NCBI GenBank assembly: GCA_020719045.1
Contig: DYQY01000007.1
Span: 5,425 to 69,424 of the forward strand
From: Candidatus Termititenax sp.
GTDB lineage: Bacteria > Margulisbacteria > Riflemargulisbacteria > GWF2-35-9 > DYQY01
Length of the DNA stretch: 64,000 bases
Direction: 5' to 3'
The notes beneath the pieces were generated by a model that saw only the letters and a list, made by a program, of their open reading frames with translations, ran no database searches and was not told where the DNA came from. Below are positions 29,820-58,692 of this stretch, one piece after another. Position 1 is the stretch's first letter, and each line of letters begins with the position of its first letter. The position numbers and the translations under genes are program-made.

Positions 29820-29847
29820 ATATCGTAAACCAATCCCAAAAATTCCC
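29820..29847 (-). promoter_or_regulatory. ECF-like promoter motif upstream of the 318-aa gene
   Basis: On the minus strand GGGAA (29847-29843), 17 bases, then CGATAT (29825-29820), 31 bases before the ATG. It shares CGATATATT with the site at 58666 and the GGGAATTTTT context with the site at 55467. Confidence 0.5.
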
Positions 29848-29954
29848 ACATATTTTCATAAAACAGAAAATATAAATATATCACAATATACTTATCTAGT
29901 AATTTGCCCAATATTTTGGATTTTAAACATTTCTTCTTGAAAGGCTGCGTGTGG

Positions 29955-30461
29955 CTATTTAGCTAGGGTTGGAACAAATTCCTTAAAAAAATCCCAAGCA
30001 TAAACCGTATTTAATAACTTATAAGCAAATGAATTAATTAGGTATGCTCCTATTGGACTTATTGTTATCTTGGATACTAACACTAATACAATAAAAATAA
30101 GCAATGTCCACTTAAGGAAGTTCAGGACTAGCCCAGCAACATTATTAAAGATACCTACGGGGCTTATTTGGAAAATTTTTGTAATCAATCTTCCCCATAG
30201 TACAAAAAAAACAAAACTAGCCAAATAGGTCAAAATATACGCCACAAAGCCTGACCAAGAAACGGCAAACTTAAGATACTTTGCCATCCATCCATTAACC
30301 ACTAAGGAATACTTGTTTGCAGCATAGAAAGAAACTATTATTGCCAAGGAGTCAAACAAGATATTAATAAACCCACTTACATAGCCTCGATAACTAAAAA
30401 ATATTAATGCAATAACAACTGCTACATCAATAATATTAATCTTGGCAATAAATTCCATCAT
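29955..30461 (-). CDS. CvpA-family membrane protein
   Basis: A 168-residue inner-membrane protein with four hydrophobic helices. The opening INIIDVAVVIALIFFSYRGYVSG matches the CvpA pattern, in which D-x-x-V and a GY/RG turn recur. CvpA proteins are linked to colicin V production and envelope stress, with no defined biochemical role. It overlaps purE by one base. The purine gene next door recalls the cvpA-purF link in other bacteria. A gap of 166 bases before the 318-aa cluster separates it from that operon. Confidence 0.8.
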   Translation of the reverse strand: MMEFIAKINIIDVAVVIALIFFSYRGYVSGFINILFDSLAIIVSFYAANKYSLVVNGWMAKYLKFAVSWSGFVAYILTYLASFVFFVLWGRLITKIFQISPVGIFNNVAGLVLNFLKWTLLIFIVLVLVSKITISPIGAYLINSFAYKLLNTVYAWDFFKEFVPTLAK

Positions 30462-30910
30462 TATGAATTCTTCATTTCCTCTTTATGAGCCAACAATCTT
30501 TCCTTCACAGCTGCTTCAGAAACACCAATAATCTGTGCCGCCAAAATAGCTGAATTCGCTGCTCCATTTATTGCTACAGATGCAACAGGAACACCTTTTG
30601 GCATTTGAACGATAGAATACAATGAATCTACACCACCAAGGTCAGAAGTTTTCATAGGGACACCAATAACAGGAACAATACAATGACCTGCAACAACACC
30701 TGGAAGGTGAGCTGCTTTTCCAGCTGCAGCAATTATTACTTTATATTTCTTGTGAGCATCTTCTACTAAGCCCATAACCTTCTCTGGGTTTCGGTGCGCA
30801 GAAGCAACTTCTACTATACTTGTTAATCCAAACTTATCTAACATATCTATACATTCCTGCATAACTGGCATATCTGAACTACTTCCCATTATAACTAATA
30901 CATCTTTCAT
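30461..30910 (-). CDS. purE: N5-carboxyaminoimidazole ribonucleotide mutase PurE
   Basis: It converts N5-CAIR to CAIR in purine synthesis (class I PurE). Conserved sites are MGSSSDMPVM at the phosphate-binding N-terminus, SAHRNPEKV, and the loop AAAGKAAHLPGVVAGH. 149 residues is normal. A class I PurE needs PurK, which is not in this window. It overlaps cvpA by one base and follows the SIMPL gene by 12 bases, so the three are probably co-transcribed. Confidence 0.95.
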   Translation of the reverse strand: MKDVLVIMGSSSDMPVMQECIDMLDKFGLTSIVEVASAHRNPEKVMGLVEDAHKKYKVIIAAAGKAAHLPGVVAGHCIVPVIGVPMKTSDLGGVDSLYSIVQMPKGVPVASVAINGAANSAILAAQIIGVSEAAVKERLLAHKEEMKNS

Positions 30911-30922
30911 TATTTAACCTCC

Positions 30923-31618
30923 TTAAAATTCATAAATCACATTAACTTGTGAATTAACTTTCATTTCTCCAACTTGATACTGCGTTGCTGTATCAGAAAC
31001 TGCTAACGCTTTCATCTGCATGCCTTCCACTCTTAATGGTTGGACATAATCACCAGACTCATTAATCTCTTTTATCCTAATCTTTCCAATGTCCATCGTT
31101 TTTGCAATAAGCTGTGCTTTATCTTTTGCATCAATCAAAGCAAACTTTAAAGCTTTCTGCTTATACTCTTCTATTCTGGAACTCGAAAAACTTATCTGCC
31201 CTATATTATTCAAACCACTGTTCACTGCGACATCTATTACTTTACCAATTAACGTTATGTCTTTTAATATAATTCTTAAATTTTGATCAACAATATATCC
31301 CATGAATTGTCGCTTCCCAGCAACGTATTCATAACTATTATTGATACTTAGCCTTTCTGTAGATATATTCTCTTTAGCAACTAACGACTTAATCTTATTT
31401 GTAAAACCATTAACCTTTTCATTAACATCTTTCTGACCCTTAACAACGTCTTGATAAACTCCACTTACTCCAACTAAAACATAAGCGATATCTGGCTCAA
31501 AAGAAACTTCTGATTTTCCACTAACATTTATGGACTTATTATTATCTTCCTGTTCATAAGTGGTCCCTAATAATAAAAAAACACATATAAAAAAAACTAC
31601 TACTATTTTCTTTGGCAC
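30923..31618 (-). CDS. SIMPL domain (DUF541) exported protein
   Basis: A 231-residue protein with an N-terminal hydrophobic export segment (KKIVVVFFICVFLLLGTTY), then the SIMPL/DUF541 opening INVSGKSEVSFEPDIAYVLVG. It ends in YQVGEMKVNSQVNVIYEF, the terminal beta strand typical of the family. E. coli YggE and similar proteins form periplasmic or membrane-linked rings and are tied to oxidative stress, without defined chemistry. GTG is the start, preceded by AGGAGG. It lies downstream of the NRPS genes but has its own ribosome site and a 30-base gap. Confidence 0.88.
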   Translation of the reverse strand: MPKKIVVVFFICVFLLLGTTYEQEDNNKSINVSGKSEVSFEPDIAYVLVGVSGVYQDVVKGQKDVNEKVNGFTNKIKSLVAKENISTERLSINNSYEYVAGKRQFMGYIVDQNLRIILKDITLIGKVIDVAVNSGLNNIGQISFSSSRIEEYKQKALKFALIDAKDKAQLIAKTMDIGKIRIKEINESGDYVQPLRVEGMQMKALAVSDTATQYQVGEMKVNSQVNVIYEF

Positions 31619-31648
31619 TATATACCTCCTATAAGTCTTTTACATATT

Positions 31649-32845
31649 CTACAACAAAACGTTATCTATCGTCTTCCATAAACTATTTATAATTTGAATA
31701 GTCGTATCTTTGCCAACATTTTCCTGATAAACAACTCTAATACAATCATAATCAATAAAAAAAGTTAATGGACAAACAGCTTCATTACAGGTTAATAAAT
31801 AACCCCGCATGGAAACCTCTTGATTATAAGTCTGAAAAGAGACTAAAACAGAATATAAATGAGCTGGCAAAGAGAGTTTACTTATTGGAAACTGCTGATG
31901 CCTTAATGCTTCTTTAATCTTTTTCGAAATATTAACGAGCCCCAGATTCAATGGTTGATTGGATATATTTATTGGCAATGTGTTCACAAAAAGTCCAGGA
32001 GTACTTCTCTGTTTTTTATTTGTCCTATTTAATAAATGCACACCAAGACAAAAAGAATCAAGAAAATAAATTCTACAAAACGTCTCACTAATAAGATAAA
32101 GCCACAAAACAAACTCTGAAACATTACTACTAATAGCTAATTCTCTTAATGCTTCTTTTTTTTCTTCATTAACAAACATAAACTCTACCTTACTCTTCAA
32201 GTTGGTCTTATCTATCAATGAGAATACATTAATATTGCTTTGTTTATTACATAGTTCATCCTCCCAGTATTCTTTATCCTTTTCCCAAATAGATGAACCA
32301 ATATACTCCTTTTGCGAACGTAAATAATCTTTATAATCACAATCATCTAGGTTATATAAACTTACTACTTGATTATTAATAAGCTGACTATAAATATCCA
32401 TAACCCTGTTTGTTGTTATATTAATCCCATATAAATCAAATAATAAATGATGAGCTTTAATAAAATAAAAATTAGTTGCAGGTGAAATTATAATAGCAAC
32501 ATAAATCAATTTCTCGTCACTTACAAACATTGGCTCCCATGTTTTATTTTGCATCCACTCAATAGCTTTTTTGTCATCCAAAACATTATCAATAAACTCA
32601 CAATCACAAGCAACCATTTCTTCAAATATTTGATATGGATACCCGTCATCATCAACTAAAAACCTTGCCTTAAAATTTGAAAAACTATTTATAGCTAAAA
32701 AACTAGCTTTAGCTAAAATTTGCAGATTAATACTTTTATCTAATTTACTATACCCAGCTACGCTCCACAAATTGCCTTTTGAAAACAACTGCTCGGCTAT
32801 CCACATTTCTTCCTGCTGAATTGAAAGATTATACCTTTCCATCAT
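31649..32845 (-). CDS. Stand-alone NRPS condensation domain
   Basis: This 398-residue protein is one condensation-like domain. The catalytic motif reads KAHHLLFDLYG (HHxxxD kept, the following G displaced by two residues). The C5-like motif is present as TPGLFVNTLPINI. N-terminal NLSIQQEEMWIAEQ corresponds to motif C1. Condensation domains join peptidyl and aminoacyl thioesters or release the product onto an amine or alcohol. As the last gene of the NRPS locus it may act in release or final acylation; this is inference. It is about 50 residues short of a typical domain. It overlaps the previous gene by 17 bases. Confidence 0.82.
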   Translation of the reverse strand: MMERYNLSIQQEEMWIAEQLFSKGNLWSVAGYSKLDKSINLQILAKASFLAINSFSNFKARFLVDDDGYPYQIFEEMVACDCEFIDNVLDDKKAIEWMQNKTWEPMFVSDEKLIYVAIIISPATNFYFIKAHHLLFDLYGINITTNRVMDIYSQLINNQVVSLYNLDDCDYKDYLRSQKEYIGSSIWEKDKEYWEDELCNKQSNINVFSLIDKTNLKSKVEFMFVNEEKKEALRELAISSNVSEFVLWLYLISETFCRIYFLDSFCLGVHLLNRTNKKQRSTPGLFVNTLPINISNQPLNLGLVNISKKIKEALRHQQFPISKLSLPAHLYSVLVSFQTYNQEVSMRGYLLTCNEAVCPLTFFIDYDCIRVVYQENVGKDTTIQIINSLWKTIDNVLL

Positions 32846-35810
32846 TTATCTCCCTAAGAATCTTACCCCATTCATCTTTGCTACAAGGCAAGTAAGCACT
32901 CAAAATTAACTTATCTCCCTTTGTAGCTAAGCTAAATGTTATTGCCGATGGCCAAGTATTATTTGTCCATTTGCCATCAATCGTACTATATAATTCTGTG
33001 CTCTCATCTACTTCCGTTCTGTAATGAAAAACAATAAAAGGCTCCAAAAGTTCTTTTTTCAAACTTACATTACTAGTGCCCTCATGAATTGTTGGATGCT
33101 TATACATATAGTTTAACCACTTTAAAGATTTAAAATTAGTAAGTGTTTTCGCCGCTTTTTTACGAATAAAATTTATCTCATCAAATAACTCTTCTACATT
33201 CATGCCTTTTCTGAACACACAAGGAATAAAATCTGTAAATTCACCTATTGTTTTTACAAATCTACCTTCCTGATATGCTCTTGTATCTTGAACCATAAAA
33301 AAAGGAGTATCAATATCAATCAACATTTTTGTTATCTTACTAAATATTTCTAACGACTGCATCAAACTATCCTGATTGTCTTCTAAATCGAAAGCATGCT
33401 CATATAATGATAGATTATTCAATAGATACTTTGGAAAATCTGAGACTGCTCTATTAAATTCATCCAACTTAAACTCACGAACAATCTCCTCTTCATTTAA
33501 TAATGAACAATTTCTTAGCAACTTCAAATATTCTTCATACTGGACATTATTACCAATAGACCCTAAAAAGAAATAACTTTTTAAAATATCAGCACCAACC
33601 TTATTATGAATAGACTCATCCATGCAAAAAACAAACAAATATCTAGTGTTAGTTACTCTAACGAAAATATGTCTATAAGGAAAATCCTTCAATCTATCTT
33701 TGGCTAAATAATACTCTTTAATAAAAGGCAACATCTTCATTATTTGTGCTTCATTCAAACTCAATTCACTTAAATCTATCACCACTGAAGATACTTTATC
33801 CGGCATTTTAAAAACTGCCCAATAAAACTTATTGTGATTAGTAACCAAAGACGCTCGTAACAATTGCTGTTCACTCAACAAACAATTATGTCTCTCATTC
33901 AAAACATCAAACGAATAATCATTGCACCAGAGATAATCTATACTATACTTCTCGCGATACATATTTCTAAAGTTTAACCTCCAAGGTTCAAGGTCTATTC
34001 TATCTTCAATACCACTTTCAATAAGTCTGTTAAAATATTCAATCTCCCTCTGCCTCAATTCCGACAATTTTGTCTTGATAAAGTCAGCTACTAGTGGCTT
34101 ATCTTTTGTGCTATATTTATATGCAACCTCTTTTGATCCAGACGAGCTAACTAGCCTCAAAAAAGAGGTAATACTGTCTGCGGAATACATGTCAGCTATC
34201 TTTGTAGAAAAACCTATTTTCTGAAGCTTGTACATAATTCTAATCATCGACAATGAGTCAGCACCTTGCTCAACAATACTTTTATCCATTACTATTTTTT
34301 TCCCTAAAACATCTTCTATTATTAATATAATCTGATTTGACCACGAATTATCCGAATTACTCAACTCATTTTGTTTCCAAAATAAACTAATTAACGCTTG
34401 CCTATCAATTTTTCCACCAATCGTCTTCGGCAATATCTCAAAATATAATATATCAGAAGGAATCATTTGTTCTGCTAATTTTGACTTCATCTCTGCAAAG
34501 AGAACCTTTCTATCTACTTCTGAAACTATAAAAATAACCAGTCTCGGAACGAAAATACTCTGACTAACATTTAGTACAACAGCCTCTTTAACACCATTAA
34601 TTTCTAACGAAACTCTGTTAATTTCAGCTAACTCTATTCTATAACCATTTACCTGTACTTGGTCATCTTCCCTACCCAAGAACAATAAATCTCCAGAAGA
34701 CATTTTTTGCACCATGTCTCCAGTTCGATACCATTTCTTATCTTTTATGAATACAAACTTTTCCTCATTCATCTTTTCGTCTAGATAACCAAACGATACG
34801 CCCTCTCCGGCAATCAATAACTCGCCTCTGATCTCTTCTTGAACTTCAACTAAACTATCGTTTACTACCAAAACCTGTGTGTTTTTTAAAGGAGAACCTA
34901 TTAACATTTGTGACCTAATACCCTCTAACTCAGCCATACTCTTTGCTTCATATACAACACTTTCTATCGTACACTCAGTTAATCCATATCCATTTATAAC
35001 TCTAGCCTTAGGAAAACTCACTACTGCCCAACCAAAATCACTTCTTGAACATGCTTCTCCTCCAAAAATAATCTGCCTAATAAAGTCTGTATTTATTAAA
35101 CTCGTTTTTGTTGCCTCAAGCAACAATCTTATATAGGATGGCGTTGATTCAACAATATTTGGTTTATATATATTAATTATTTCCACCAAATAGCTAAGAT
35201 TTAATTTGTCTTCCTTGTTAACAATAATCAATGTTCCAGCCCAAAAAAGTGATTTAATAAGGTTTCCAATGAACATATCTGTACTTATACTAGATAACTG
35301 TAAAACCTTGGGGGAAAAAGAATCCAATTTATAAAAATCTTGCCAGGCATCCATTAAACTTACAATATTGTCATAACTAATCTGAACAGCTTTCGGAGTA
35401 CCTGTCGAGCCAGAAGTAAACATTAAGTATGCTATTCTTTTTCCAAAATTAACACTTTCTTTTCCCGATAATTTTTTATGAAAAATCCCATCATTTTCCG
35501 CTATAATCAATTTAACTTTTGCTTGCTCTACATAAAAATCAATTCTTAATTCTGGAGTATCTTCATCTATAGTTATCACAGTAGCACCTATTCTCCAAAT
35601 AGCCAAAAAATAGGCTACAGCCATAAACGAGCATCTCATCTTTAAGGCTACAATATCACCTTCATTAATCCCCAAGCTTACAATTTCTTTGTAAATAACT
35701 TCTATTGTTTCCAAAAGATATTTATATGTATACTCTTTCTTTGCATAAATAATCGCAACCGATTCTGGATTACAGTTCGCTTTTTCTTCAAATTTCTTAA
35801 AAAATACCAT
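32829..35810 (-). CDS. Non-ribosomal peptide synthetase module: A - PCP - C-like
   Basis: This 993-residue synthetase starts directly with an adenylation domain: A3 LMFTSGSTGTPKAV, A5 NGYGLTECTIES, A7 YRTGDMVQ, A8 GREDDQVQVNGYRIELAEI, and K of A10 in GGKIDRQ. A carrier domain follows with its phosphopantetheine serine at about residue 517 (EQGADSLSMI). The last 430 residues are condensation-like but carry CMDESIHNKVG in place of HHxxxDG. Reading pocket residues by alignment to GrsA gives D-M-G-E-I-F-G-I-E-K, with acids at two positions, hinting at a basic amino acid. It has no loading C domain, so it should accept substrate from the 1536-aa protein upstream. Confidence 0.88.
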   Translation of the reverse strand: MVFFKKFEEKANCNPESVAIIYAKKEYTYKYLLETIEVIYKEIVSLGINEGDIVALKMRCSFMAVAYFLAIWRIGATVITIDEDTPELRIDFYVEQAKVKLIIAENDGIFHKKLSGKESVNFGKRIAYLMFTSGSTGTPKAVQISYDNIVSLMDAWQDFYKLDSFSPKVLQLSSISTDMFIGNLIKSLFWAGTLIIVNKEDKLNLSYLVEIINIYKPNIVESTPSYIRLLLEATKTSLINTDFIRQIIFGGEACSRSDFGWAVVSFPKARVINGYGLTECTIESVVYEAKSMAELEGIRSQMLIGSPLKNTQVLVVNDSLVEVQEEIRGELLIAGEGVSFGYLDEKMNEEKFVFIKDKKWYRTGDMVQKMSSGDLLFLGREDDQVQVNGYRIELAEINRVSLEINGVKEAVVLNVSQSIFVPRLVIFIVSEVDRKVLFAEMKSKLAEQMIPSDILYFEILPKTIGGKIDRQALISLFWKQNELSNSDNSWSNQIILIIEDVLGKKIVMDKSIVEQGADSLSMIRIMYKLQKIGFSTKIADMYSADSITSFLRLVSSSGSKEVAYKYSTKDKPLVADFIKTKLSELRQREIEYFNRLIESGIEDRIDLEPWRLNFRNMYREKYSIDYLWCNDYSFDVLNERHNCLLSEQQLLRASLVTNHNKFYWAVFKMPDKVSSVVIDLSELSLNEAQIMKMLPFIKEYYLAKDRLKDFPYRHIFVRVTNTRYLFVFCMDESIHNKVGADILKSYFFLGSIGNNVQYEEYLKLLRNCSLLNEEEIVREFKLDEFNRAVSDFPKYLLNNLSLYEHAFDLEDNQDSLMQSLEIFSKITKMLIDIDTPFFMVQDTRAYQEGRFVKTIGEFTDFIPCVFRKGMNVEELFDEINFIRKKAAKTLTNFKSLKWLNYMYKHPTIHEGTSNVSLKKELLEPFIVFHYRTEVDESTELYSTIDGKWTNNTWPSAITFSLATKGDKLILSAYLPCSKDEWGKILREINDGKV

Positions 35811-35854
35811 TTTATTATGCCTCGATAACCCTTTTTGTTAATCTAAATAATATA

Positions 35855-38800
35855 TCACTGAGGATCTCTAATTTCAGTATACTTAGTTTCAAATGCCTGT
35901 CTAATCTCATTTGCATTGACTTGATAAGGAAATCTAATAAAAACCTCACAAACGCCATCTACTACTGTTACATTAAAGCTTATACCATATAGCCATCTAT
36001 TTATAGCACTTTGATCATCACTAAAAACTTCATCTATACTTATATCCCCTTGTTTAAAATTAAACAAAAGCAGTCTGTTTGTCTCTTCTAATTTGCCAAC
36101 TATTTGCTTAACTCTCCTTGAGAACGGATTACTCTTTAAATTTTTGTTAAATAATAGATTCTTAAAATGAATACCATTTTGATTAACAACTTCCAAAATC
36201 GAATGAATATTTACTATATTATCTTCAGCTGACAAAGTAGTATCCACTATAACTGGAACCCCATCAATAAATGCTCCGATACTATTCGCAAGGGATTCTG
36301 CATCAAAAAACCTTGTGTTATGAAGCATAATTATTGGAATATTTGTAAAAGGGAAATGACTCTTTGCAAACACCAAAAACAAATTCATCGCAACATTTAA
36401 CTCATTAATCTCACTCTTATTTATAACAATTTTGTATCTAAAGGATGAATGCTTTTTTTGCTTACAAATTTTCTTAGACAAAAACTTAGAATAAATATTA
36501 ATATGCTTAATAAACTCATCTAGGCTTAACTCCGACAAAAGATTTTCCTGGTTAGATAACCCAGAATTTATTATGAATCTATGTATGTATTCCTTGTAAC
36601 CAATAGACTTAGGATATTCCTTAAACCCATCATTAGCTACACTAATTAAATAATAATTAATAAGCATGTTTCCATAGTCATCATGAATACTATCATCCAT
36701 GAAATAGTATAAAAAAGTTTCACTTAGATTAAATTTAACTACAATTGCTCTAAACGTAAACCTTCTTAGATTATTATTAGAAGAAAAATATTCATTTAAA
36801 ACACTATAGACAAAATCGTAGCTTGAAAATACTTCATAACTAGACAAATCTAAAACAGGAATACAGCAGTCACTTTCAGAAAAAATCTCCCAACTATATT
36901 TCATTAACCCATTTTTTACTAAACCAGCCCGAAGTAAATCATTTTTACTCATTAACTCACTTATTGCTCTACTTATTTCTAAAATTTTATTATCATCAAT
37001 CCTAATCAGCGAAACAAAATAGACATTTCTATAAAACTTCCTTAAGTCACTAGAATACAAAGGATCCTCTAATTTATAAGAAACACCACCAGAAATAAGT
37101 TTATTAAACAATTCTACCTCTTGTTTATTTACTTTTACCAGCAACTCCTTTGCCTTATTAGCATCAATAACTTTGTAATCCTTATCCATCAAATATTGTG
37201 GTTGAATATTATTAGAAAATCTCTGCTTACAAAAGTCTATTATTCCCTGTTTATTCAAAAAACTCTTGTCTTCAGACACATACAAATAGCTAATTTTTTT
37301 GGAAAGTTTTTCATTATATACATTCTTTACCAAAACACCTTCACCAAAACACCTTAACAAAACAACATTAGCTCTGTCTAAATCACTAATTTTATCTCGC
37401 ACAATAAATGTGCTGTAAAAATCCTCTAAAGAAAAACTTCTATATATATCAAGATAACTACACTTATAGCCTAATCCATTTAGTTTGGAAGCTATTTTAA
37501 TTGCTTCTAATGAGTCAGCTCCCATCTGAATAAAACTCATTGATGCAACAAACTTCGCGCCTAAGACTTCCTTCCACACGCTTAATACTAGACTCTTATC
37601 AAAGGACAAAATGTCCCCTTCAGGCAATTTACTTACTGGAATAATTAATTTCATCTCAGCTAGTATCTTTCTATCCACCTTACCATTAGCTGATATTGGC
37701 ATTTCATCTAACCTACAAAAAAAGTTAGGCACCATATAGTCTGGCAACAACTCCTTTAACCTTAGCACAAAGTTTATATGTGATATTTCCTTGCTAGACT
37801 GATAATAGGCAACTATTACTTTACTATCATACACATCTTTTGTAACAACTATAGCTTTTACATGAAAAAGCTTCTCGATACATGATTCTATTTCACCTGG
37901 TTCAACTCTGTATCCACGTACCTTTATTTGAAAATCCTTTCTGCCAATAAACTGTATATTCCCATCACTGAGTAGTCTAACTAAATCACCAGTTCGATAA
38001 ACTCTACCAATATCGTCGATATCTATAAACTTTTGCTTTGTTAACTCACTAGAAGTATATCCAGCAGCTAACCCATAACCATAAATAATTAGCTCTCCAT
38101 CTACTCCTACACCGACCTGCCTTAAATCCTCATCTAGGACATACATTTTTGTATTTCTAAATGGCTTTCCAATTGGCAAGTTCCCATATAATGGCAATTT
38201 GCAATCTTTGCATAAAAAATAATCGCTACTATAGATTGCAGCCTCAGATACCCCATATGAATTTATTACCATTGCTCTATTCAGATACCTTGCATTTAGT
38301 TTCCTAAAATCCTCGACAGAGCAAATATCCGACCCAACTACGACTAACTTTATGGTACTATCGTCAACATTTTGCTTTTCCATATAACCCACCAATAATG
38401 AAATTAACGAAGGTGTGGAATCTAAAACATTCACATTATAGTCTTCTATCATACGTGAAAGTGAACTAAGGCTGTGTCTCTCATCCTCAGTGGGGAGAAC
38501 CAAGGTACCACCAGTGCAGACAGTCTTTAAGTAATTTCCAATAAACACATCATGTGCAAATGAAGATGTCTGCAAAAGCACAAACTCTTCTCCAACAATT
38601 TTGTATTTAAACTCCCACGCTTCTAATACATTCACAACAGCTCTGTGCGTATTTATTACGCCTTTAGGTTCACCTGTAGATCCAGAGGTATAAACCATAT
38701 AACAAGGTGAATAATCTTCAACATGCTCTTTAGTAAAAATCTGAAAAGAATCTGTGATACTCTCAAACAATACTTGTTTACATACAACATCCAATAAGCT

Positions 38801-40465
38801 ATCAGTTACCAATAACATACTTTTGCTATCCTCAATAATCTTCTGTATTCTCTGGAGTGGGTCATTTTTGCTAATTGGTAAAAAAACAGCCCCACACAAA
38901 AATATTCCTGTAATACAAGCTATCATGTCTACCGAATAATCCATGATAACAGCGACTCTATCACCAACCTTAACTCCTTGGCTTTGCAAATATCCTGAAA
39001 CCCTGTAAGATATCTCAAAAAGTTGATCATATGAATATGACCTTCCATTACAAATGACAGCTGTGTTTATATGCTTTCTGTTTGCTACATCCTCTAACAC
39101 AGAACATAAATTGTCTTTATATAGAATTGCTTCAGTATCATTCATTTTTCTAATAATCTCTTGCTCAATATTTGTTAAAATTCTAATGTCTTTTAAATTA
39201 CTAAAGCTTTCACTTATTATCTGATTAAAAAACAATCTGAACTTCTGAACAAATATTTCCATATCTTCTTCAGAGAAAAGACTCTCATCAAAGTACATAC
39301 TCATAACTACTTTTTTTTGTATTTGGAATTCTCTTACTCGAACATCCAATGAACATTGAATCATCCCGTTAAATAACGTGATAACTTCTGAGGAAAATCC
39401 TCCCGTTAGATAATTATGGTCATGAGGTTCATATGAAAAATTAATTGATTCTCCAAGGTCATATCCCTCAGAAATCGCTCCTTCATAAAACTCCTTCCAA
39501 GAACACTTCTGGTGCCGATAACCTTCTTTTAAATCGTTTGAAATACTTGCAAATAAAGAGCTTAAATTGTCACCTATTTCAACCATAACAGGCGCAATAC
39601 TAGCAAAACAACCTAAGCTACATTTTTGTGGCTTTGACAATCTATTCTGAAGCCGAACATTTAATAAAACCTTGTTTCTAGATGTCCTAGCTCTAATAAT
39701 TAACATAAACACAGCAATAAAGAAATTAAAAATACTTATATTATTCTCACTGCAATACCTTAAAATTGTTGCATACTCCTCTGAATCTATCTCTACCTCT
39801 TTTGCAATTGCAGAAGCGACTATATTCTTTCGCTTTATATTTGAAGCTGACCAGTTGTACTCTTTGAGTAACTTAACTTTATCTTTCCAAAACTTGCTAT
39901 CACTTATATATTTTGCAGAATTAAAATACTCCTTATCTTGGTCTAAAAATTCAAAAAAAGAAAAATTGTGTGAAGGAGAAAACGCACTTCGTTTAATCTT
40001 GTCGTAATACTCAGCTATCTTATGTGCCGTTATTGCAATACTAAACCCATCAGCAATTAAGTGACTATACACTGAATAACAATAGGAATTATTATCCGTT
40101 AACAAAATTCCTATCTCAAACAACTTACCACTCTGTAAATCAAATGGAGTCTTCATTCGATTTGCCACCCAGTCTTCGCAAGCTTTTTCTGGATTAATCT
40201 CATTACTAAAGTCTCTAACAACTACCTCAGTCTCTATATCAGCAACCTCTTGTAAGTATTCACCATTCTCATTGCGCACAAAAAATGTTTTAAGGATATT
40301 ATTTTCTTCACACACTGCTCGCACAGCTCTTCTAAATATTGCATAATCCATTCTGCCATGAATAAAAATATACCCACCAATATTTAAGTGTGGAGAATCA
40401 ATAGCTAAAAACTGTTCATTTAAATATTGTTTCTGGATGTAACTTAAAGGAAATCTGTTTGCCAT
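35855..40465 (-). CDS. Non-ribosomal peptide synthetase module: C - A - PCP - C-like
   Basis: A 1536-residue synthetase. The N-terminal condensation domain (about 1-430) has YSHLIADGFS, with catalytic H135 and D139-G140; the first His of HHxxxDG is Ser. The adenylation domain (about 460-950) has YTSGSTGEPKG near residue 590, NSYGVSEAAIYS, YRTGDLVR, GRKDFQIKVRGYRVEPGEI and ANGKVDRK. The carrier serine is in MGADSLEAIK near residue 980. A C-terminal condensation-like domain follows with MDDSIHDDYG near 1257 and IGAFIDGVPV as C5. The pocket code by alignment reads D-V-G-D-V-V-S-I-Y-K. An N-terminal C domain with nothing upstream suggests a starter that adds an acyl group. No thioesterase, MbtH or PPTase gene is in the window. 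Confidence 0.9.
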   Translation of the reverse strand: MANRFPLSYIQKQYLNEQFLAIDSPHLNIGGYIFIHGRMDYAIFRRAVRAVCEENNILKTFFVRNENGEYLQEVADIETEVVVRDFSNEINPEKACEDWVANRMKTPFDLQSGKLFEIGILLTDNNSYCYSVYSHLIADGFSIAITAHKIAEYYDKIKRSAFSPSHNFSFFEFLDQDKEYFNSAKYISDSKFWKDKVKLLKEYNWSASNIKRKNIVASAIAKEVEIDSEEYATILRYCSENNISIFNFFIAVFMLIIRARTSRNKVLLNVRLQNRLSKPQKCSLGCFASIAPVMVEIGDNLSSLFASISNDLKEGYRHQKCSWKEFYEGAISEGYDLGESINFSYEPHDHNYLTGGFSSEVITLFNGMIQCSLDVRVREFQIQKKVVMSMYFDESLFSEEDMEIFVQKFRLFFNQIISESFSNLKDIRILTNIEQEIIRKMNDTEAILYKDNLCSVLEDVANRKHINTAVICNGRSYSYDQLFEISYRVSGYLQSQGVKVGDRVAVIMDYSVDMIACITGIFLCGAVFLPISKNDPLQRIQKIIEDSKSMLLVTDSLLDVVCKQVLFESITDSFQIFTKEHVEDYSPCYMVYTSGSTGEPKGVINTHRAVVNVLEAWEFKYKIVGEEFVLLQTSSFAHDVFIGNYLKTVCTGGTLVLPTEDERHSLSSLSRMIEDYNVNVLDSTPSLISLLVGYMEKQNVDDSTIKLVVVGSDICSVEDFRKLNARYLNRAMVINSYGVSEAAIYSSDYFLCKDCKLPLYGNLPIGKPFRNTKMYVLDEDLRQVGVGVDGELIIYGYGLAAGYTSSELTKQKFIDIDDIGRVYRTGDLVRLLSDGNIQFIGRKDFQIKVRGYRVEPGEIESCIEKLFHVKAIVVTKDVYDSKVIVAYYQSSKEISHINFVLRLKELLPDYMVPNFFCRLDEMPISANGKVDRKILAEMKLIIPVSKLPEGDILSFDKSLVLSVWKEVLGAKFVASMSFIQMGADSLEAIKIASKLNGLGYKCSYLDIYRSFSLEDFYSTFIVRDKISDLDRANVVLLRCFGEGVLVKNVYNEKLSKKISYLYVSEDKSFLNKQGIIDFCKQRFSNNIQPQYLMDKDYKVIDANKAKELLVKVNKQEVELFNKLISGGVSYKLEDPLYSSDLRKFYRNVYFVSLIRIDDNKILEISRAISELMSKNDLLRAGLVKNGLMKYSWEIFSESDCCIPVLDLSSYEVFSSYDFVYSVLNEYFSSNNNLRRFTFRAIVVKFNLSETFLYYFMDDSIHDDYGNMLINYYLISVANDGFKEYPKSIGYKEYIHRFIINSGLSNQENLLSELSLDEFIKHINIYSKFLSKKICKQKKHSSFRYKIVINKSEINELNVAMNLFLVFAKSHFPFTNIPIIMLHNTRFFDAESLANSIGAFIDGVPVIVDTTLSAEDNIVNIHSILEVVNQNGIHFKNLLFNKNLKSNPFSRRVKQIVGKLEETNRLLLFNFKQGDISIDEVFSDDQSAINRWLYGISFNVTVVDGVCEVFIRFPYQVNANEIRQAFETKYTEIRDPQ

Positions 40466-40506
40466 ATCTCAATTGTAATATAGGGTTAAAATATATAAAA
40501 CAGCTA

Positions 40507-42825: not shown

Positions 42826-42831
42826 AATTAA

Positions 42832-45956: not shown

Positions 45957-46256
45957 TTAAACTCTAATAGATTCTCTTACTAAAGAAGCAGCCTTTTGTG
46001 ATGGCAATCTTTTTAAGATATGTTCTTGTTTATGTTCATTAAAAAGAAAATATATTTCTCTTACTTTACTATCAGGAAGCTGTGCAAGAATTCTACATAC
46101 ACTGGTAATATCAAATTGATCTAAAATCTTTACAATTAAGGATGCTTCAGTCTCCACGATTCTATTAATTAAGCTTATGTCACCGTTGATACAACTAATA
46201 ATTACTTCATCTGGGTTTGTGATAACTGCTTTAGCTTTTTTGATAAAATTTGGCAT
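45957..46256 (-). CDS. Small protein with MgtE-N/FliG-like helical repeat, 99 aa
   Basis: Not firmly recognised. The helical pattern LVKILDQFDITSVCRILAQLPDSKVREIYFLF (short helices with a recurring L-x-x-LP turn, cited in part as ILAQLPDSKV) resembles the superhelical repeats shared by MgtE N-terminal domains and the FliG middle domain. At 99 residues it would be one or two repeats alone. The context is convergent with dapF (stops adjacent). A promoter-like GCAAC-N16-CGATAA pair lies 88 bases upstream. With motAB in the window a flagellar link is conceivable but unproven. Confidence 0.5.
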   Translation of the reverse strand: MPNFIKKAKAVITNPDEVIISCINGDISLINRIVETEASLIVKILDQFDITSVCRILAQLPDSKVREIYFLFNEHKQEHILKRLPSQKAASLVRESIRV

Positions 46257-46344
46257 TTTCTCATCCCCCTATTAATTACTTTCTACTAACTATATTATCC
46301 TCTTATTTCCAACTGACAAGTTTTCTTATCTGTTGTATATTAAG

Positions 46345-46371
46345 TTATCGGTAAAAACCTAAAAAAGTTGC
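46345..46371 (-). promoter_or_regulatory. ECF-like promoter motif upstream of the 99-aa gene
   Basis: Minus strand GCAAC (46371-46367), 16 bases, CGATAA (46350-46345). The 15-mer CGATAACTTAATATA is identical to that at the 55445 site. Confidence 0.45.
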
Positions 46372-46399
46372 AATAATTTTACTAAAGGAGAAAAAAATA

Positions 46400-47572: not shown

Positions 47573-47575
47573 TCT

Positions 47576-49385: not shown

Positions 49386-49396
49386 CTGTTTCTCCT

Positions 49397-49852: not shown

Positions 49853-49944
49853 ATTTCACCTCTATCTAAAATGTATGCTTATTATAAAGATATTTTCTCT
49901 AAAAGAAAACCACAAACATAGTTAATATCATCTTTTTATCAAAA

Positions 49945-51778: not shown

Positions 51779-51779
51779 A

Positions 51780-52202: not shown

Positions 52203-52229
52203 TATCTCAATTTTCCTTTTTACTAGTAC

Positions 52230-53582
52230 TTATTCTAATAAATACTTAATATGTGTCTCTATGTAATTTGTGTACGTTTCACCTTTGATAAAATCTTTCT
52301 CATCTAAAATCTTTAAATCAAAAGGAATAACAGTTTTAACACCGTCAACCACAAACTCATGTAAAGCCCTTTTTGCTCTGTCGATTGCTTCTGTTCTATC
52401 TTTCCCGTGCACAATTAATTTTGCAAGCAAAGAATCATAATTAGGAGGAACCTTATATCCTTGATACACATGACTATCAACTCGAACACCAGGACCACCT
52501 GATGGCAAATAATGCTTAATCTCACCTGGACAAGGCATAAAATTCATAAATGGATCCTCTGCATTTATTCTAAACTCAATAGCATGACCGTTAACCCGAA
52601 TATCTTTCTGAGTAAAAGATAATTTCTGATGTGCTGCCACTCTAATTTGTTCTTTCACTAAATCCATGCCGGTTATTTGCTCTGTAACACAATGCTCCAC
52701 CTGAATTCTTGTATTCATTTCCATAAAATAGAAATTTTTTGATTTATCAAGCAGGAACTCAATAGTTCCAGCTCCTCTGTAGTGAATAGCTTTTGCGGCT
52801 TTAACAGCAGCAGAACCAAGCTTTGCTCTTATTTCTTTAGTAATTACCGGCGAAGGCGCTTCTTCCAGCAATTTCTGATGTCTTCTTTGGATTGAACAAT
52901 CTCTTTCTCCAAGGTGAACAACATTACCAAAATCATCAGCCATAATCTGAACTTCGATATGTCTTGGTTTTTCAATAAACTTCTCTAAATAGATATCTCC
53001 ATTTCCAAAAGCTGATTTAGCCTCATTTGATGCCATGTTAAACATCTTTTTAAAATCTGAAGCTGTTTTAGCGACTCTCATACCCTTACCGCCACCACCA
53101 GCTACTGCCTTTATCATAATCGGATAACCGATTTTCTTTGCTACTCTTGCTCCTACTTCATCATCTGCTACAACTCCATCAGACCCAGGAACAACAGGCA
53201 CCTTTGCTTTTCTCATTGTTTCTTTTGCTACTGCCTTGTCACCCATCTTAACTATATTATCTACAGATGGACCGATGAACTTTATCTTATTAGCTTCACA
53301 AACTTCTGCAAAAACTGCATTTTCTGCTAAGAAACCATAACCTGGATGAATTGCTTCTGCTCCTGTAACTTCCGCAACACTTATAATCGCTGGAATATTT
53401 AAGTAACTTAACGCAGAAGAAGCTGGACCAATACAAAAAGCTTCATCAGCTAGCTTTACATGTAATGAAGTTTTATCAACTTCAGAATACACAGCTACTG
53501 TCTTTATACCTAATTCTCTACACGCACGAATTACTCTGACCGCTATCTCGCCTCTGTTTGCAACTAATACTTTCTTAAACAT
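52230..53582 (-). CDS. accC: Biotin carboxylase, acetyl-CoA carboxylase subunit
   Basis: It carboxylates biotin on the carrier protein as the first step of fatty acid synthesis. MFKKVLVANRGEIAVRVIRA is the expected start; the ATP-grasp loop is KAVAGGGGKGMR, and further sites include ERDCSIQRRHQKLLEEAPSP and FMEMNTRIQVEHCVTE. I use ATG 53582, with GGGAGAAG upstream, rather than an earlier in-frame codon at 53609. That gives 450 residues, the family norm. accB is not in the window. A palindromic ATATAATTATAT element lies between it and the divergent glycosyltransferase gene and could serve both. Confidence 0.95.
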   Translation of the reverse strand: MFKKVLVANRGEIAVRVIRACRELGIKTVAVYSEVDKTSLHVKLADEAFCIGPASSALSYLNIPAIISVAEVTGAEAIHPGYGFLAENAVFAEVCEANKIKFIGPSVDNIVKMGDKAVAKETMRKAKVPVVPGSDGVVADDEVGARVAKKIGYPIMIKAVAGGGGKGMRVAKTASDFKKMFNMASNEAKSAFGNGDIYLEKFIEKPRHIEVQIMADDFGNVVHLGERDCSIQRRHQKLLEEAPSPVITKEIRAKLGSAAVKAAKAIHYRGAGTIEFLLDKSKNFYFMEMNTRIQVEHCVTEQITGMDLVKEQIRVAAHQKLSFTQKDIRVNGHAIEFRINAEDPFMNFMPCPGEIKHYLPSGGPGVRVDSHVYQGYKVPPNYDSLLAKLIVHGKDRTEAIDRAKRALHEFVVDGVKTVIPFDLKILDEKDFIKGETYTNYIETHIKYLLE

Positions 53583-53647
53583 TGCTTCTCCCTTAATTTT
53601 TTTTAGCATATAATTATATCATATTCCATAAATGATAGGAGACAAAG

Positions 53648-55225
53648 ATGAGTTTAGCGCAAAAATTGTTTAGAAATCATTTCTTTTTATTGATAGTTAT
53701 CGGCATTTTTCTGTTTGTTATTGGCAATAATAATTTCACTTTATTTGATAATTCCGAAACAAACTACTCTGCAGTAGCTAAAGAAATTGTTAATACTGGT
53801 GATTATCTAACAATGCACTATAACACTGAAAACTGGTATATTCATCCACCATTGTATTTCTGGATATCAAGCACACTTTGTGAAACTTTTGGATGGAACG
53901 AGTTCAATCTTCGCTTACCGGAAGCTGTCTTTGGTATTCTTGGTCTTATAGCTATTTATCTTATTGCAAACCTCTTTTACTCAAGACAAACATCTTTTTA
54001 CAGTGCGCTCATACTCGGGACATCTTTAACCTACTTTGTTATCAGCAGGCTAGCTGTTTTTGATACTTTGCTAAATACGTTTATCCTGTTCTCTGTCTTC
54101 TTCTTCTTTAAGGCATATTTAAAACCAGTTAAAAAAGGCAAATACTTCTTTTTCTTTGCAATAAGTTGCTTCCTCGCCGTTTTAACCAAAGGACCTATAG
54201 GATTAGTCCATCCATGCGCCGTTATAGTAATTTTTCTTTTAATTAAAAAAGAGATTAAATTCTTATTCGATAGAAAAGTCTTAATTAACTTTGCTCTATT
54301 CTTATTATTAACTTCACCATGGTATATACATCAATTAATTACAAACGGTATGCCCTTTTTTGATAAAGCCCTTCGAGACTATACTTGGTATAGATTCTTT
54401 GGTGTTGTAGAAAGTCAATCAGGCCCCTGGTGGTATTACTTCCCCATGCTTTTAACATTCATTCCTTGGATATTTTATCTACCAGTTATTGTGAAGGATG
54501 CTTTCTCCAAAAACACAGACGATAAAACAAAAGACTTTAAGCTTTTTAGCTGGATTTTTATCATTTTCACTTTCGTTTTCTTTAGTCTTGCTGGCACGAA
54601 ACTCCCTAGTTACATCTTTGGCATGTTTCCGTTTATGGCTATCTTAATAGCTGACCAACTAGAAAGTTTTAAAAACAAAAAAACAATCATCGTTTCAACG
54701 ATAATATCATTATTATTTTTCATTGGATTATTTATCTATAGTCTAACTTACAAACTTCCAGCGCCTTACGAAAAAGAAGCTTACTTTATTATTACTTTCT
54801 TCTTAATTCCTGCAGTAACTGTATTAATCTTTTCTTATCTCTTAATAAAACAAAAATTGTCCAAAGCCATCACCATAATCACAACTGGAACAATCATTTT
54901 CTGCATGTATTTAGTGTTCTTCTTTTTCCCAAAATTAGACAACTATAAAGACAGCAAGTTCTTTATTGAAACAATCCAAAAACAAGCCACAACAGAATAT
55001 ACAGTTGCAACATACAATCACTATACTCCTTATCTTATTTACTACCTCAATAAAAAAATATATACACCAGACACTCCTGAGGAATTATCTGAGTTAATTA
55101 ACATTGGCAAGCCACTTTTTCTAATGACAAGAAAAAGTGATGTTGCAAACATAATTAAGACTTTTAGTAACGCTACTGTGTTAGACAATTATAATGAGTT
55201 CTCTGGTCTACTAATTACCAAATAA
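53648..55225 (+). CDS. ArnT-like / PMT-type glycosyltransferase (GT-C fold)
   Basis: A 525-residue inner-membrane protein with about ten or more hydrophobic helices. The first periplasmic loop carries the acidic catalytic-type stretch LFDNSETNYSAVAKEIVNTGDYL and HPPLYFWISS, as in ArnT and related PMT_2 enzymes. These transfer sugars from polyprenyl phosphates to lipid A or proteins. The donor and acceptor are not determinable here. AGGAG precedes ATG 53648. It is monocistronic and followed by a small CTGAC/GTCAG hairpin. No other lipid A gene is adjacent. Confidence 0.85.
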   Translation: MSLAQKLFRNHFFLLIVIGIFLFVIGNNNFTLFDNSETNYSAVAKEIVNTGDYLTMHYNTENWYIHPPLYFWISSTLCETFGWNEFNLRLPEAVFGILGLIAIYLIANLFYSRQTSFYSALILGTSLTYFVISRLAVFDTLLNTFILFSVFFFFKAYLKPVKKGKYFFFFAISCFLAVLTKGPIGLVHPCAVIVIFLLIKKEIKFLFDRKVLINFALFLLLTSPWYIHQLITNGMPFFDKALRDYTWYRFFGVVESQSGPWWYYFPMLLTFIPWIFYLPVIVKDAFSKNTDDKTKDFKLFSWIFIIFTFVFFSLAGTKLPSYIFGMFPFMAILIADQLESFKNKKTIIVSTIISLLFFIGLFIYSLTYKLPAPYEKEAYFIITFFLIPAVTVLIFSYLLIKQKLSKAITIITTGTIIFCMYLVFFFFPKLDNYKDSKFFIETIQKQATTEYTVATYNHYTPYLIYYLNKKIYTPDTPEELSELINIGKPLFLMTRKSDVANIIKTFSNATVLDNYNEFSGLLITK

Positions 55226-55292
55226 AAAGGGCCTGACTTTCGTCAGAAGCGATAATTTAATCTCTTCTAAGTGGATTTACTTCCACGTTTGA

Positions 55293-55412
55293 TCATTTAG
55301 TTGTTAATACATAAGGACGAATCACCACTGAACTTACGAATTTACTGCCTCTGCTACCTAAAAGCATCCATCCATTCTCTTTAGCTATCTTCTGTGTTTG
55401 TGTCTCGTACAT
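55293..55412 (-). CDS. Very small protein, 39 aa, unknown
   Basis: The frame reads MYETQTQKIAKENGW near the start and ends VVIRPYVLTTK. It has a strong ribosome site (CGGAGGAT) and a promoter-like GGGAT-N16-CGATAA pair 32 bases before the ATG. That spacing matches the other two close sites of this class. A GTGGA/TCCAC hairpin follows at 55271-55286. No family is recognised. It lies just downstream of the 1040-aa gene but has its own promoter motif. Confidence 0.55.
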   Translation of the reverse strand: MYETQTQKIAKENGWMLLGSRGSKFVSSVVIRPYVLTTK

Positions 55413-55444
55413 TGTGTTATCCTCCGTTCGTCCCTTATATTAAG

Positions 55445-55471
55445 TTATCGAACAAATAGGAAAAAAATCCC
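55445..55471 (-). promoter_or_regulatory. ECF-like promoter motif upstream of the 39-aa gene
   Basis: Minus strand GGGAT (55471-55467), 16 bases, CGATAA (55450-55445). It shares the 15-mer CGATAACTTAATATA with the site at 46345 and the TGTGGGA context with the site at 29843. Confidence 0.5.
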
Positions 55472-55514
55472 ACACTATTTTTCACACACAAAATTTTCAC
55501 ATATCTTTCATAAT

Positions 55515-58500
55515 TTACTGACTTACAGGCTGATACTTCTCAATTAAACTTAAATCACCTGATTCATGAACTTTGTCATACAAATCACCTGGCAAAGGTT
55601 CAAAATGAGTAGCCTGCTCAAAAGGACTAATTGAAGTATTAGCTTCCATAATCACTTTAATAAGTGGCCAACCACTATCCATAAGCTTATATTCCAAACC
55701 AGTTACTTTAAATCCACAACGTTCATACGCACCAATAACATTAGCATTACTTTCAGAAGCAGATGTCTCGAGCTTAATTTTATCTATTCCTTCTTGTCTC
55801 GCTCTTGACCACAATCGAAGAAGCATTCGTCTAAAAAACCTATGCTGACGGTACTCTGGATTTACTGCTGCCTTAGAAATATATATATACTTGCCTTCGT
55901 CATCCTCTTGCATATATGCATATAGCATTCCGACTAATTTTGTACCATCATCTACAACAAAAGAATAGTCTGCTTTCCCTGAATTACTCTTCTGATAATA
56001 ACTAATAGGAGTAGGATTAGACGGATCATGAGGTATCATTCTATCTAACGTCAAAAGTTGATTAGATCTTTCTGCTACAAGTCTATCAGTCATAGGAACT
56101 ATTTCTGAACCACTTAGAAAATCTTCTGGATGAACAAGCAAATCATTTATCACTCCAGAAATAATAATGCCAAGTTCTTGAAAGTTCCGATTATGTTGTA
56201 ACCCTGTTGCTATTCTTAGAGTATGCATATACCAGTCCATTCTTGTCACAACAAAACCCCAACTAGTACCGTCAGCAAGACTTATTCCCTTTGATGCTGC
56301 TCTCTCAAATACTCTTCGTTTTATCTCTTCAAACACTCTCCCAGCAATATAATCATCTGTATCCTTCTCCTCAATCTTCAAATAAGCATGTATATTCGAA
56401 TCGGGATCATAATGAAAACTGAACATAACCTTATGAATCTTACTTGAATCAATATTATCCCTTATCTGCAGCTCACTACTTCCATCAAATGGTGATTTAT
56501 AAATAAACAACCCTCTTTCACTCTTGTCCTGAATTAATAGCTCATTCAATCCTAATCTTATCGAGCTTATAAGTAGACCCGTATTACGTTGCCTTTTCAG
56601 CACCATAAAGTCTAAATAATTTTTCATCGTACCAGATGCGTATCTCTGATAAAAAAGAAGCTCCAATAGTCTCTGGCTATATGAATCCTGAATAGTTCCA
56701 TCCGCAACTAATCCATCCTCAAGAATAGATTTAATTTTCTCTAATTTATTAACATAATGCTTACTAGCATATAAATTAATAACTCCTCCAGTAGTAACAT
56801 CAAAGCCTAACTGATGCATCTTCGCCATACTCGTTGTAAAAATTAAAAATACATTATCAGGAATACCACTTGGAAATAATGTTGATGAAGTTATTCTTTC
56901 AAAATCCATTGTATTATCTACAACCAAATAAACTGGATTCGTAATCCGATAACTATTTATATCTAACATTCTACAGAAATGAAGAAGGTCAAATGACTTA
57001 GTATAAAAGAAAGGAGAAATGCTTTGATCCAGACAAAGCAACTGTCCTCCAACACATTGCGCATTTTCTGCTAGCACTTTCTCAACCATTGTATCTATCT
57101 CTTGTTTTGTACTATTTGTAGCTAATCTTTCCAGCCTATTTTCTCCCTGACATTCTTCTGAATAATGTGGATTGCTTGAGAAAATATTCTCTATCAGAAA
57201 GTCTGTTTCCCAATAATGAGGTGTTGTATATGCCTTTGAAACAAGCTTTGCTAAACAAGTAATCACTGCTCGTGTAGCTGTCATCCCAGAATTAGTTGTA
57301 AGCACAACTGAACCGTCTAAAACACCAAGCCTTCTATTAATCTCTTCATATGACGAACTACGCTCAATATCAATAATCTTCGCAGAAAACTGCACTAGCG
57401 ACCTTAAGGCATAATAAGATTCATGAAAAACACTCCTAACATCAGATAATAACGGCTCTTCTTGTGAAAGAACACTGTTCAACTTATCACCGAGCATCTG
57501 AAATTTAACTATTAATATATTTCTAATATCTTGGTTTAATGATCTCTCTAAAAAAGTATCTTGCAATGACGCTAACGAAATCTTTACTGTATCCACAAGT
57601 ACTTGGTAGTCTCTTTGCATTTCCCGAATATTTGACTCGCCGGAAATTCTGCTAGCATTTTCATCCCAAGTGATAATAGTATCTTCAGTTTTAATTTCAG
57701 TGTTCAATAAAGGCAATAATCTACTTGCTTCATAGCTATACTCAACAACATCTCTAATGGCTGGACGATAACCCATAGATGCTGCATCCTGCAATAACTG
57801 ATACCTTAATTTGTCAGACATATTATGAAAAAAACTAACCTTACGAAACCTTTGAGAATCTGATTTATAAGGGTCATAAGGTTCTTCGACTAATACCTGA
57901 TAACTTCTACCACTTCTTGTAATCTGACTCTGTATTCGTTCCTTAAAAACATTCTCAACAATAAATCCTGTTTTTAAATAAAACCCGCTTCTGAAGAAAT
58001 CTTTTTCCTTTGTACTATTGATATCTTCTATTTGATCCAAAAATTTTGATAGCTCACCTTCATTTTGAATTTCTACCGCAACTAATCTGTTTGTATTTCC
58101 TTGCTCTAAGAAATCTTTAAGAATCCCATTGCCAGACAAATACCATACAGCCTCTTTATCAGGAGACATCGTAATATATTTTGCAGCTAAATTAATAAAG
58201 CTATAACTTTTGGCTGAATTAATCATAACAACATTTCTATCATAAGAATCTCCAAAAACAGGAATGTTCATTTCTGAACGCAAATACTTAATGTGCGCAT
58301 TTAAGCTAAGTAATCCCCCCTGAAAGACAGAAGCACCCTTCTTCGGTGCAGGAGATCGGTACTCCTGACTGATTAAAGCAAAAAAGAACCATTCTCTTAA
58401 AGTAAGGTATCTACTAGAAATATCCTCTACTTTGCAACCAAACAATTCTTTAATATCTTGAATCTCATTTTTTAATTTAGAAAATATTGCGAAACTTATG

Positions 58501-58637
58501 TTATTTAACGAATTACCACAAAGCAGAAGAGACATTGCCTCTTCCATCCTGAGTAAATCCGAATAAATATTATCATCTGAAATATTTAATATCTTATTAA
58601 CATTAGAAACAGAAACTAGCTTATACTTAACAAACAA
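55515..58637 (-). CDS. 1040-aa protein with PLP-enzyme-like core and C-terminal GNAT domain
   Basis: No complete match comes to mind. The N-terminal ~430 residues are helical and unrecognised. A central part resembles Cys/Met-metabolism PLP enzymes: LTTNSGMTATRAVITCL near 440, YLVVDNTMDFERI near 580, then FTTSMAKMHQLGFDVTTGGVI with K606 where the PLP lysine would be. The last part (about 880-990) is a GNAT acetyltransferase fold: GMLYAYMQEDDEGKYIYISKAAV, NPEYRQHRFFRRMLLRLW and YERCGFKVTGLEYKL. The acetyl-CoA loop, normally RxxGxG/A, reads RQHRFF, so activity is uncertain. The start is TTG 58637 with GGAGG six bases upstream. There is no signal peptide. A promoter-like GGGAA-N16-CGATAT pair lies 28 bases upstream. 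Confidence 0.7.
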   Translation of the reverse strand: MFVKYKLVSVSNVNKILNISDDNIYSDLLRMEEAMSLLLCGNSLNNISFAIFSKLKNEIQDIKELFGCKVEDISSRYLTLREWFFFALISQEYRSPAPKKGASVFQGGLLSLNAHIKYLRSEMNIPVFGDSYDRNVVMINSAKSYSFINLAAKYITMSPDKEAVWYLSGNGILKDFLEQGNTNRLVAVEIQNEGELSKFLDQIEDINSTKEKDFFRSGFYLKTGFIVENVFKERIQSQITRSGRSYQVLVEEPYDPYKSDSQRFRKVSFFHNMSDKLRYQLLQDAASMGYRPAIRDVVEYSYEASRLLPLLNTEIKTEDTIITWDENASRISGESNIREMQRDYQVLVDTVKISLASLQDTFLERSLNQDIRNILIVKFQMLGDKLNSVLSQEEPLLSDVRSVFHESYYALRSLVQFSAKIIDIERSSSYEEINRRLGVLDGSVVLTTNSGMTATRAVITCLAKLVSKAYTTPHYWETDFLIENIFSSNPHYSEECQGENRLERLATNSTKQEIDTMVEKVLAENAQCVGGQLLCLDQSISPFFYTKSFDLLHFCRMLDINSYRITNPVYLVVDNTMDFERITSSTLFPSGIPDNVFLIFTTSMAKMHQLGFDVTTGGVINLYASKHYVNKLEKIKSILEDGLVADGTIQDSYSQRLLELLFYQRYASGTMKNYLDFMVLKRQRNTGLLISSIRLGLNELLIQDKSERGLFIYKSPFDGSSELQIRDNIDSSKIHKVMFSFHYDPDSNIHAYLKIEEKDTDDYIAGRVFEEIKRRVFERAASKGISLADGTSWGFVVTRMDWYMHTLRIATGLQHNRNFQELGIIISGVINDLLVHPEDFLSGSEIVPMTDRLVAERSNQLLTLDRMIPHDPSNPTPISYYQKSNSGKADYSFVVDDGTKLVGMLYAYMQEDDEGKYIYISKAAVNPEYRQHRFFRRMLLRLWSRARQEGIDKIKLETSASESNANVIGAYERCGFKVTGLEYKLMDSGWPLIKVIMEANTSISPFEQATHFEPLPGDLYDKVHESGDLSLIEKYQPVSQ

Positions 58638-58665
58638 TAACTTCCTCCATCAATTAACTACTAAT

Positions 58666-58692
58666 ATATCGATGGAGTTCTTAAATATTCCC
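58666..58692 (-). promoter_or_regulatory. ECF-like promoter motif upstream of the 1040-aa gene
   Basis: Minus strand GGGAA (58692-58688), 16 bases, CGATAT (58671-58666), 28 bases before the TTG start. Confidence 0.5.

Follow-up and report, generated by a model that had tools for sequence, protein, structure and literature searches.

One promoter type precedes dozens of otherwise unrelated genes in Margulisbacteria: a possible gene set for export or special delivery

On the minus strand of the window, the whole 64,000-nt stretch of DNA analysed here, are four copies of a two-box promoter motif, each placed upstream of a gene or a presumed transcription unit. The sites and the genes behind them are as follows.

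58666..58693, minus strand: promoter site 1, AGGGAA-N16-CGATAT, 28 bases 5' of the start of the 1040-aa gene
55515..58637, minus strand: 1040-aa protein with a TTG start, a GNAT domain at residues 873-976 and the N-terminal tag MFVKYKLVSV
55445..55472, minus strand: promoter site 2, TGGGAT-N16-CGATAACTTAATATA, in which the CGATAA hexamer is followed by CTTAATATA; 32 bases from the start of the 39-aa gene
55293..55412, minus strand: 39-aa protein, with a G001 orthologue that is 87% identical and has the same site upstream
46345..46372, minus strand: promoter site 3, TGCAAC-N16-CGATAACTTAATATA, again the CGATAA hexamer and then CTTAATATA; 88 bases from the start of the 99-aa gene
45957..46256, minus strand: 99-aa protein, with a weak MgtE_N match below cut-off and a G001 orthologue that is 78% identical
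29820..29848, minus strand: promoter site 4, TGGGAA-N17-CGATATATT, 31 bases 5' of the 318-aa gene
28832..29788, minus strand: 318-aa protein, the first gene after site 4, with no family above cut-off
28661..28810, minus strand: 49-aa open reading frame between the 318-aa and 633-aa genes
26693..28594, minus strand: 633-aa protein without a Pfam match, the last gene of the presumed 318/49/633 unit

All four sites had been reported in a preliminary description of this DNA, and re-reading of the sequence confirmed them together with the distances of 28, 32, 88 and 31 bases to the downstream starts. Sites 2 and 3 are exact copies of the genome consensus and are both kept before the orthologous small genes in a congener (G001); site 1 has a single mismatch (A replacing the first T), and the spacer of site 4, at 17, exceeds the consensus by one base. 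The G001 stretches examined yielded no orthologue of the 318/49/633 unit or of the 1040-aa gene. For the 1040-aa product, previously called a PLP/GNAT protein, Pfam recovers the GNAT domain and, at E 0.1, no PLP-enzyme domain. Also encoded in the window are an 847-aa long coiled-coil protein (24144-26687, plus strand; no family above cut-off), convergent to the 633-aa regulon gene, and an NRPS-like protein of this small-genome bacterium (35855-40465, minus strand), with condensation and AMP-binding domains and a weak carrier-protein match.

Across the whole host genome (G000; 1.75 Mb in 31 contigs), the pattern TG[CG][AG]A[ACT]-N16-CGATA[AT] has 30 exact matches, mostly directly 5' of start codons, against 1 for the reversed pattern. 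Spacers of 10 to 22 were compared in 1.57 Mb of host-genome stretches, some of them overlapping. At a spacing of 16, the -35 forms with CA or GG gave 29 matches in the 1.57 Mb (20 upstream of a called gene, 6 elsewhere and 3 inside genes) and the forms with CG or GA (TGCGA, TGGAA) gave none; spacings of 10-15 and 17-22 gave background counts of 0-7 matches each in the same stretches, nearly all inside genes, 16 being the only enriched spacing of those tried. The refined motif is TG(CA/GG)A[ACT]-N16-CGATA[AT]. Conservation extends beyond this pattern, with an A-tract 5-8 bases upstream of the TG, A or T after the -35, and TT and then AATATA on the 3' side of the -10. Two boxes at a fixed spacing, in the sense orientation, are found upstream of genes genome-wide, as is expected of a regulon. 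Chance occurrence is ruled out by the 30 matches against 1 in the control and by the enrichment at spacing 16 only, and the matches are not scattered at random inside genes (20/29 upstream, 3/29 inside), the outcome that the preliminary description had named as speaking against its own reading. Its central proposal, one regulon under an alternative sigma factor, is strongly supported by this genome-wide evidence and by the comparison across families given below. At L065:12180-12875 (G000:C22), a tandem pair of 74-aa genes, alike in sequence, has a separate promoter copy for each member (TGCAAC and TGGGAA).

The host is a Margulisbacterium: a scan with one of its sigma factors gave Candidatus Margulisiibacteriota as the phylum, and Marinamargulisbacteria and Candidatus Termititenax were among the relatives found. 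Margulisbacteria have been described as the sister clade of Cyanobacteria and, to our knowledge, have no cultured member; Termititenax are symbionts of the termite gut. Among Margulisbacteria is also an intracellular symbiont of placozoans (PMC6784892). In G001 the motif has 45 matches against 1 in the control, and most genomes of the Termititenax family (f4) have 34-47 against 0-5, with fewer in two very incomplete ones. In G032 (family f15), 35 of 41 matches have the -35 forms in use, some with tag-like N-termini behind them, and most inspected sites lie inside gene calls; the motif is probably present in this family. The count alone is a crude measure of presence: in motif-negative G009 (family f5), matches fall almost entirely inside genes and are dominated by TGGAA and TGCGA combinations, so that counts taken without location mislead. 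Besides the host, the motif is found in the congener, in the family of Termititenax and, probably, in f15; it does not recur in f5 as tested. One promoter type precedes dozens of otherwise unrelated genes in Margulisbacteria. In the part of the literature covered we found no description of the motif, the N-terminal tag or the sigma factor in Margulisbacteria, which is no proof of absence.

Shared by many of the proteins downstream of the motif is a short N-terminal sequence, referred to here as the tag and defined by the rule M-x(1-5)-K-[IVLT]-[IVL]-[SAG]. It is found in 12 of 21 such proteins in G000 (Fisher, 4e-12) and in 20 of 32 in G001 (Fisher, 2e-19), against a background of 23/714 genes overall, about 3%, in which the regulon genes are themselves counted. 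Examples are MKNKVISF, MNNKVISI, MRNKIVAT, MLKKLVSL, MYNKIISC and MNYKIVAS. In the Termititenax family the strict rule is satisfied by 6/24 proteins (p 2e-4), and looser forms such as MYKKVIN and MQTKQIA are seen. Further tagged genes that had not been in the training set were retrieved by a matrix trained only on the sites. The window's 1040-aa protein (MFVKYKLVSV) is a tagged product behind an imperfect site. A second class of regulon members is untagged and includes the 39-aa, 99-aa and 318/49/633-aa genes of the window.

In many tagged genes the start codon follows the -10 by 6-12 nt, which predicts leaderless mRNAs, and the shared N-terminus might accordingly be read as a translation feature tied to leaderless or near-leaderless messages. 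We regard this as very improbable: the tag is no less present in genes whose leaders are 29-40 nt long (L069, L071, L078, L079, L133, L137) and is thus not simply a consequence of leaderless starts, and its codons vary while its residues stay constant.

Among the tagged products are glycogen phosphorylase in G000 and G001 and glycogen synthase in G001; a pullulanase-type enzyme, UDP-glucose pyrophosphorylase, polyphosphate kinase and an HPr/EI fusion; HD, LOG-like and DHH proteins, serine dehydratase and a response regulator; a GT2 protein, a methyltransferase, a weak NERD match and the window's GNAT protein; and large proteins that match no known family. The genes under control, all taken to be undescribed in the preliminary description, are so only in part, many regulon members genome-wide having known enzyme domains. 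G000 encodes an untagged glycogen phosphorylase (L078:13063-15543) and a tagged one (L447:2158-4701), the latter behind a site with 1 mismatch (TGCAAC-N16-CAATAA), and the glycogen synthase found in G000 is untagged, whereas that of G001 is tagged and lies behind the motif; tagged versions of some storage enzymes therefore coexist with ordinary ones. Genes behind the motif in Termititenax relatives include those for an SNF2-type protein and for a protein of DUF4116 repeats. One protein behind the motif in T. persephonae (L296, G018:C7) contains nine DUF4116 repeats.

The -10 core of the motif, CGATAA/T, agrees with that of sigma-28, whose core is GCCGATAA/T within the canonical promoter TAAA-N15-GCCGATAA/T. 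The -35 is TGCAA or TGGGA and not TAAA, and CGATA is preceded by A or T and not by GC. With these two sigma-28 features missing, the sites represent a variant and not canonical FliA promoters; judged by their sequence, they are best called sigma-28-like variants, neither typical ECF nor canonical FliA promoters.

A search with Sigma70_r2 found nine sigma factors in G000, of which S28 and S31 are of the ECF type. That one of these reads the motif, as first proposed, now appears improbable. TGCAAC-N16 does resemble the -35 and spacing of Bacillus ECF promoters, and the likeness of TGCAAC to ECF -35 elements also counts against the sigma factor favoured below; an ECF operon adjoins a tagged gene in G000 (L347) and in G007 (L337), and each Termititenax genome examined has one ECF factor. 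The usual ECF -10, however, is CGTC or CGTA, and the one found here is the sigma-28-like CGATA[AT]. The preliminary description had suggested looking for an ECF gene with the motif in front of it, and no good site precedes S28, S31 or the Termititenax ECF genes; S28 and S31 were dropped as readers on this ground. S31 is moreover accompanied by an anti-sigma factor and a Spy-like protein, an envelope-stress arrangement, and has no clear orthologue in motif-positive G004 and G032.

Two FliA-like sigma factors, S29 and S32, are found throughout the phylum. S29 has its best NCBIfam match to TIGR02479 (FliA_WhiG; 120.5 bits, below the cut-off of 189.6), and Pfam finds its regions 2 and 4 and not region 3. 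Its gene lies within the operon flgH-flgI-flgJ-S29-flgB-flgC-fliE-fliF, and the order FlgI/FlgJ-S29-FlgB is conserved across families. Among the genomes examined, each one with 25 or more motif hits has SKSK[IV][SN]R as the region 4.2 helix of S29, and each one with 21 or fewer has another helix (SRPKVCR, SPATVSR, SRSSICR, SKSKVCR and others), the 25/21 threshold having been picked after the data were seen. On the FlgI tree the helix and motif label switches no more than about two times, which leaves few independent events behind the association. S29 is the best candidate for the sigma factor, as its predicted -35-recognition helix changes with the motif and the S32 and S26 helices do not. No good motif lies before the S29 operon, and there is thus no sign of autoregulation.

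The other FliA-like factor, S32, adjoins the ancestral FlhA gene in many genomes and could be the reader instead, which we consider unlikely. Its presence in 38 of 38 genomes, its FliA-like region 4 and its linkage to FlhA in G000 and other genomes fit such a role, yet its helix, SESQ[VT][ST]RIY, is identical in motif-positive and motif-negative genomes, and its region 2.4 is further from FliA than that of S29. In G000 the S32 gene (G000:C28:39567-40469, L112) stands beside an FlhA gene; the region 2 match is weak, and matches were found in 38/38 genomes searched. The first 105 residues of S32 are fused in G000 and G001 and form a separate reading frame in relatives of the same order. Two further candidates were set aside: S27, the canonical FliA, because the Termititenax family yielded no copy of it and the flagellin promoters differ from the motif, and the SigB-like S26, because its helix does not track the motif. 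The flagellin genes of G000 apparently have promoters of their own, TAAA-N15-nCCGA, which are related to the motif and go with S27.

G000 contains genes for FlgB, FlgC, FliE, FliF, FlgG, FlgH and FlgI, the FlgB and FlgH matches being below curated cut-offs. Flagellins, together with two FlhA genes, are present in G000, G001, G004 and G007. No flagellin was found in G009, G011, G013, G015, G017, G018 or G032, which represent families f4, f5, f6, f9 and f15; these genomes keep the basal-body operon, and they have a single FlhA gene wherever FlhA was found. Absence of flagellin, retention of the operon and the single FlhA point to an ancestral set that would be a flagellar-type export machine without a filament.

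Promoter and tag suggest that these genes form a set whose products are exported or specially delivered, probably run by S29. The sequences show a regulon, an N-terminal tag, two FlhA sets, a conserved operon and, in the seven genomes checked, a lack of flagellin; from these we infer that the motif is read by S29 and that export is the meaning of the tag. In the favoured model, S29 would direct RNA polymerase to TG(CA/GG)A-N16-CGATA[AT] and switch on the cargo genes of an export machine, as FliA does for flagellin. The regulon products would be mainly substrates or partners of the flagellar-type machine of the S29 operon, which would lack a flagellin filament in relatives without the second, motility set, and the tag K-[IVLT]-[IVL]-[SAG] would serve as the export address; motility flagella, where present, would use the separate FliA (S27) and a second FlhA. 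To this full model, in which S29 reads the motif, the regulon is export-machine cargo and the tag is the export address, we assign a probability of roughly 0.45. Against export, the machine is also present in motif-negative families, and a cytoplasmic role is conceivable for several tagged proteins, which are ordinary enzymes of metabolism.

The strongest rival to the export model accepts the same regulon and takes the tag as an intracellular address, for a granule, a compartment or an enzyme assembly, within a storage or dormancy programme; the enzymes of glycogen, polyphosphate and sugar-phosphate metabolism would be produced at a single life stage and concentrated in one location. The tagged glycogen synthase, glycogen phosphorylase, pullulanase, UDP-glucose pyrophosphorylase, polyphosphate kinase, HPr/EI and serine dehydratase would suit such a programme, as would the untagged paralogues of phosphorylase and glycogen synthase. 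We hold this rival to be doubtful, given that many tagged proteins have no known family or are unlike storage enzymes (GT2, methyltransferases, NERD) and that SNF2-type and DUF4116-repeat proteins lie behind the motif in Termititenax.

Stated more generally, and tentatively, several families of Margulisbacteria may have a delivery system composed of a second, cargo-dedicated FliA-like sigma factor, a short N-terminal address tag and either a filament-less machine or a new compartment; on this equally tentative reading, the tag would be borne alike by novel proteins and by duplicated enzymes of central metabolism. If true, this would be a general protein-delivery route readable from sequence alone, much as RXLR motifs and hrp boxes have allowed effectors to be catalogued in other systems. 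From promoter and tag together, candidate proteins for host interaction or special location could be listed directly, and the retention of a flagellar basal body in flagellin-less members would gain an explanation open to test.

With canonical sigma-28 systems (FliA/SigD) the present one shares the -10 core and its register, and its candidate sigma factor is FliA-like and encoded in a basal-body operon; it differs in the -35 (TGCAA or TGGGA, not TAAA), in the missing GC before CGATA and in targets that are not flagellins. HrpL and the hrp box likewise pair a dedicated sigma factor with a promoter box that defines an effector catalogue from sequence, but HrpL is an ECF factor with a GGAAC-type -35, serves an injectisome and has targets that are not known to share an N-terminal tag. 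In Campylobacter jejuni, sigma-28-dependent Fed and other non-flagellar proteins are secreted via the flagellar apparatus (PMC5223770, PMC2764114), which parallels the combination of a sigma-28-type factor, non-flagellar proteins, a flagellar export apparatus and an N-terminal signal predicted here. There, one FliA serves both flagellins and secreted proteins and a filament is present, whereas Margulisbacteria have a separate FliA-like sigma factor, another -35, a recognisable shared tag and, in most families checked, no flagellin. Chlamydia trachomatis secretes glycogen enzymes with N-terminal signals by type III secretion (PMC4829429, PMC3722199), and Margulisbacteria resemble it in having glycogen-metabolism enzymes with a predicted N-terminal signal in a phylum with intracellular symbionts. 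Chlamydia differs in that its machine is an injectisome, and PMC4829429 describes no shared tag sequence; in Margulisbacteria a phosphorylase with the tag and one without it occur together, and the set is marked by a promoter class. A second, tagged copy of a glycogen enzyme has its parallel in the glycogen enzymes that Chlamydia secretes, which makes convergence between the two testable.
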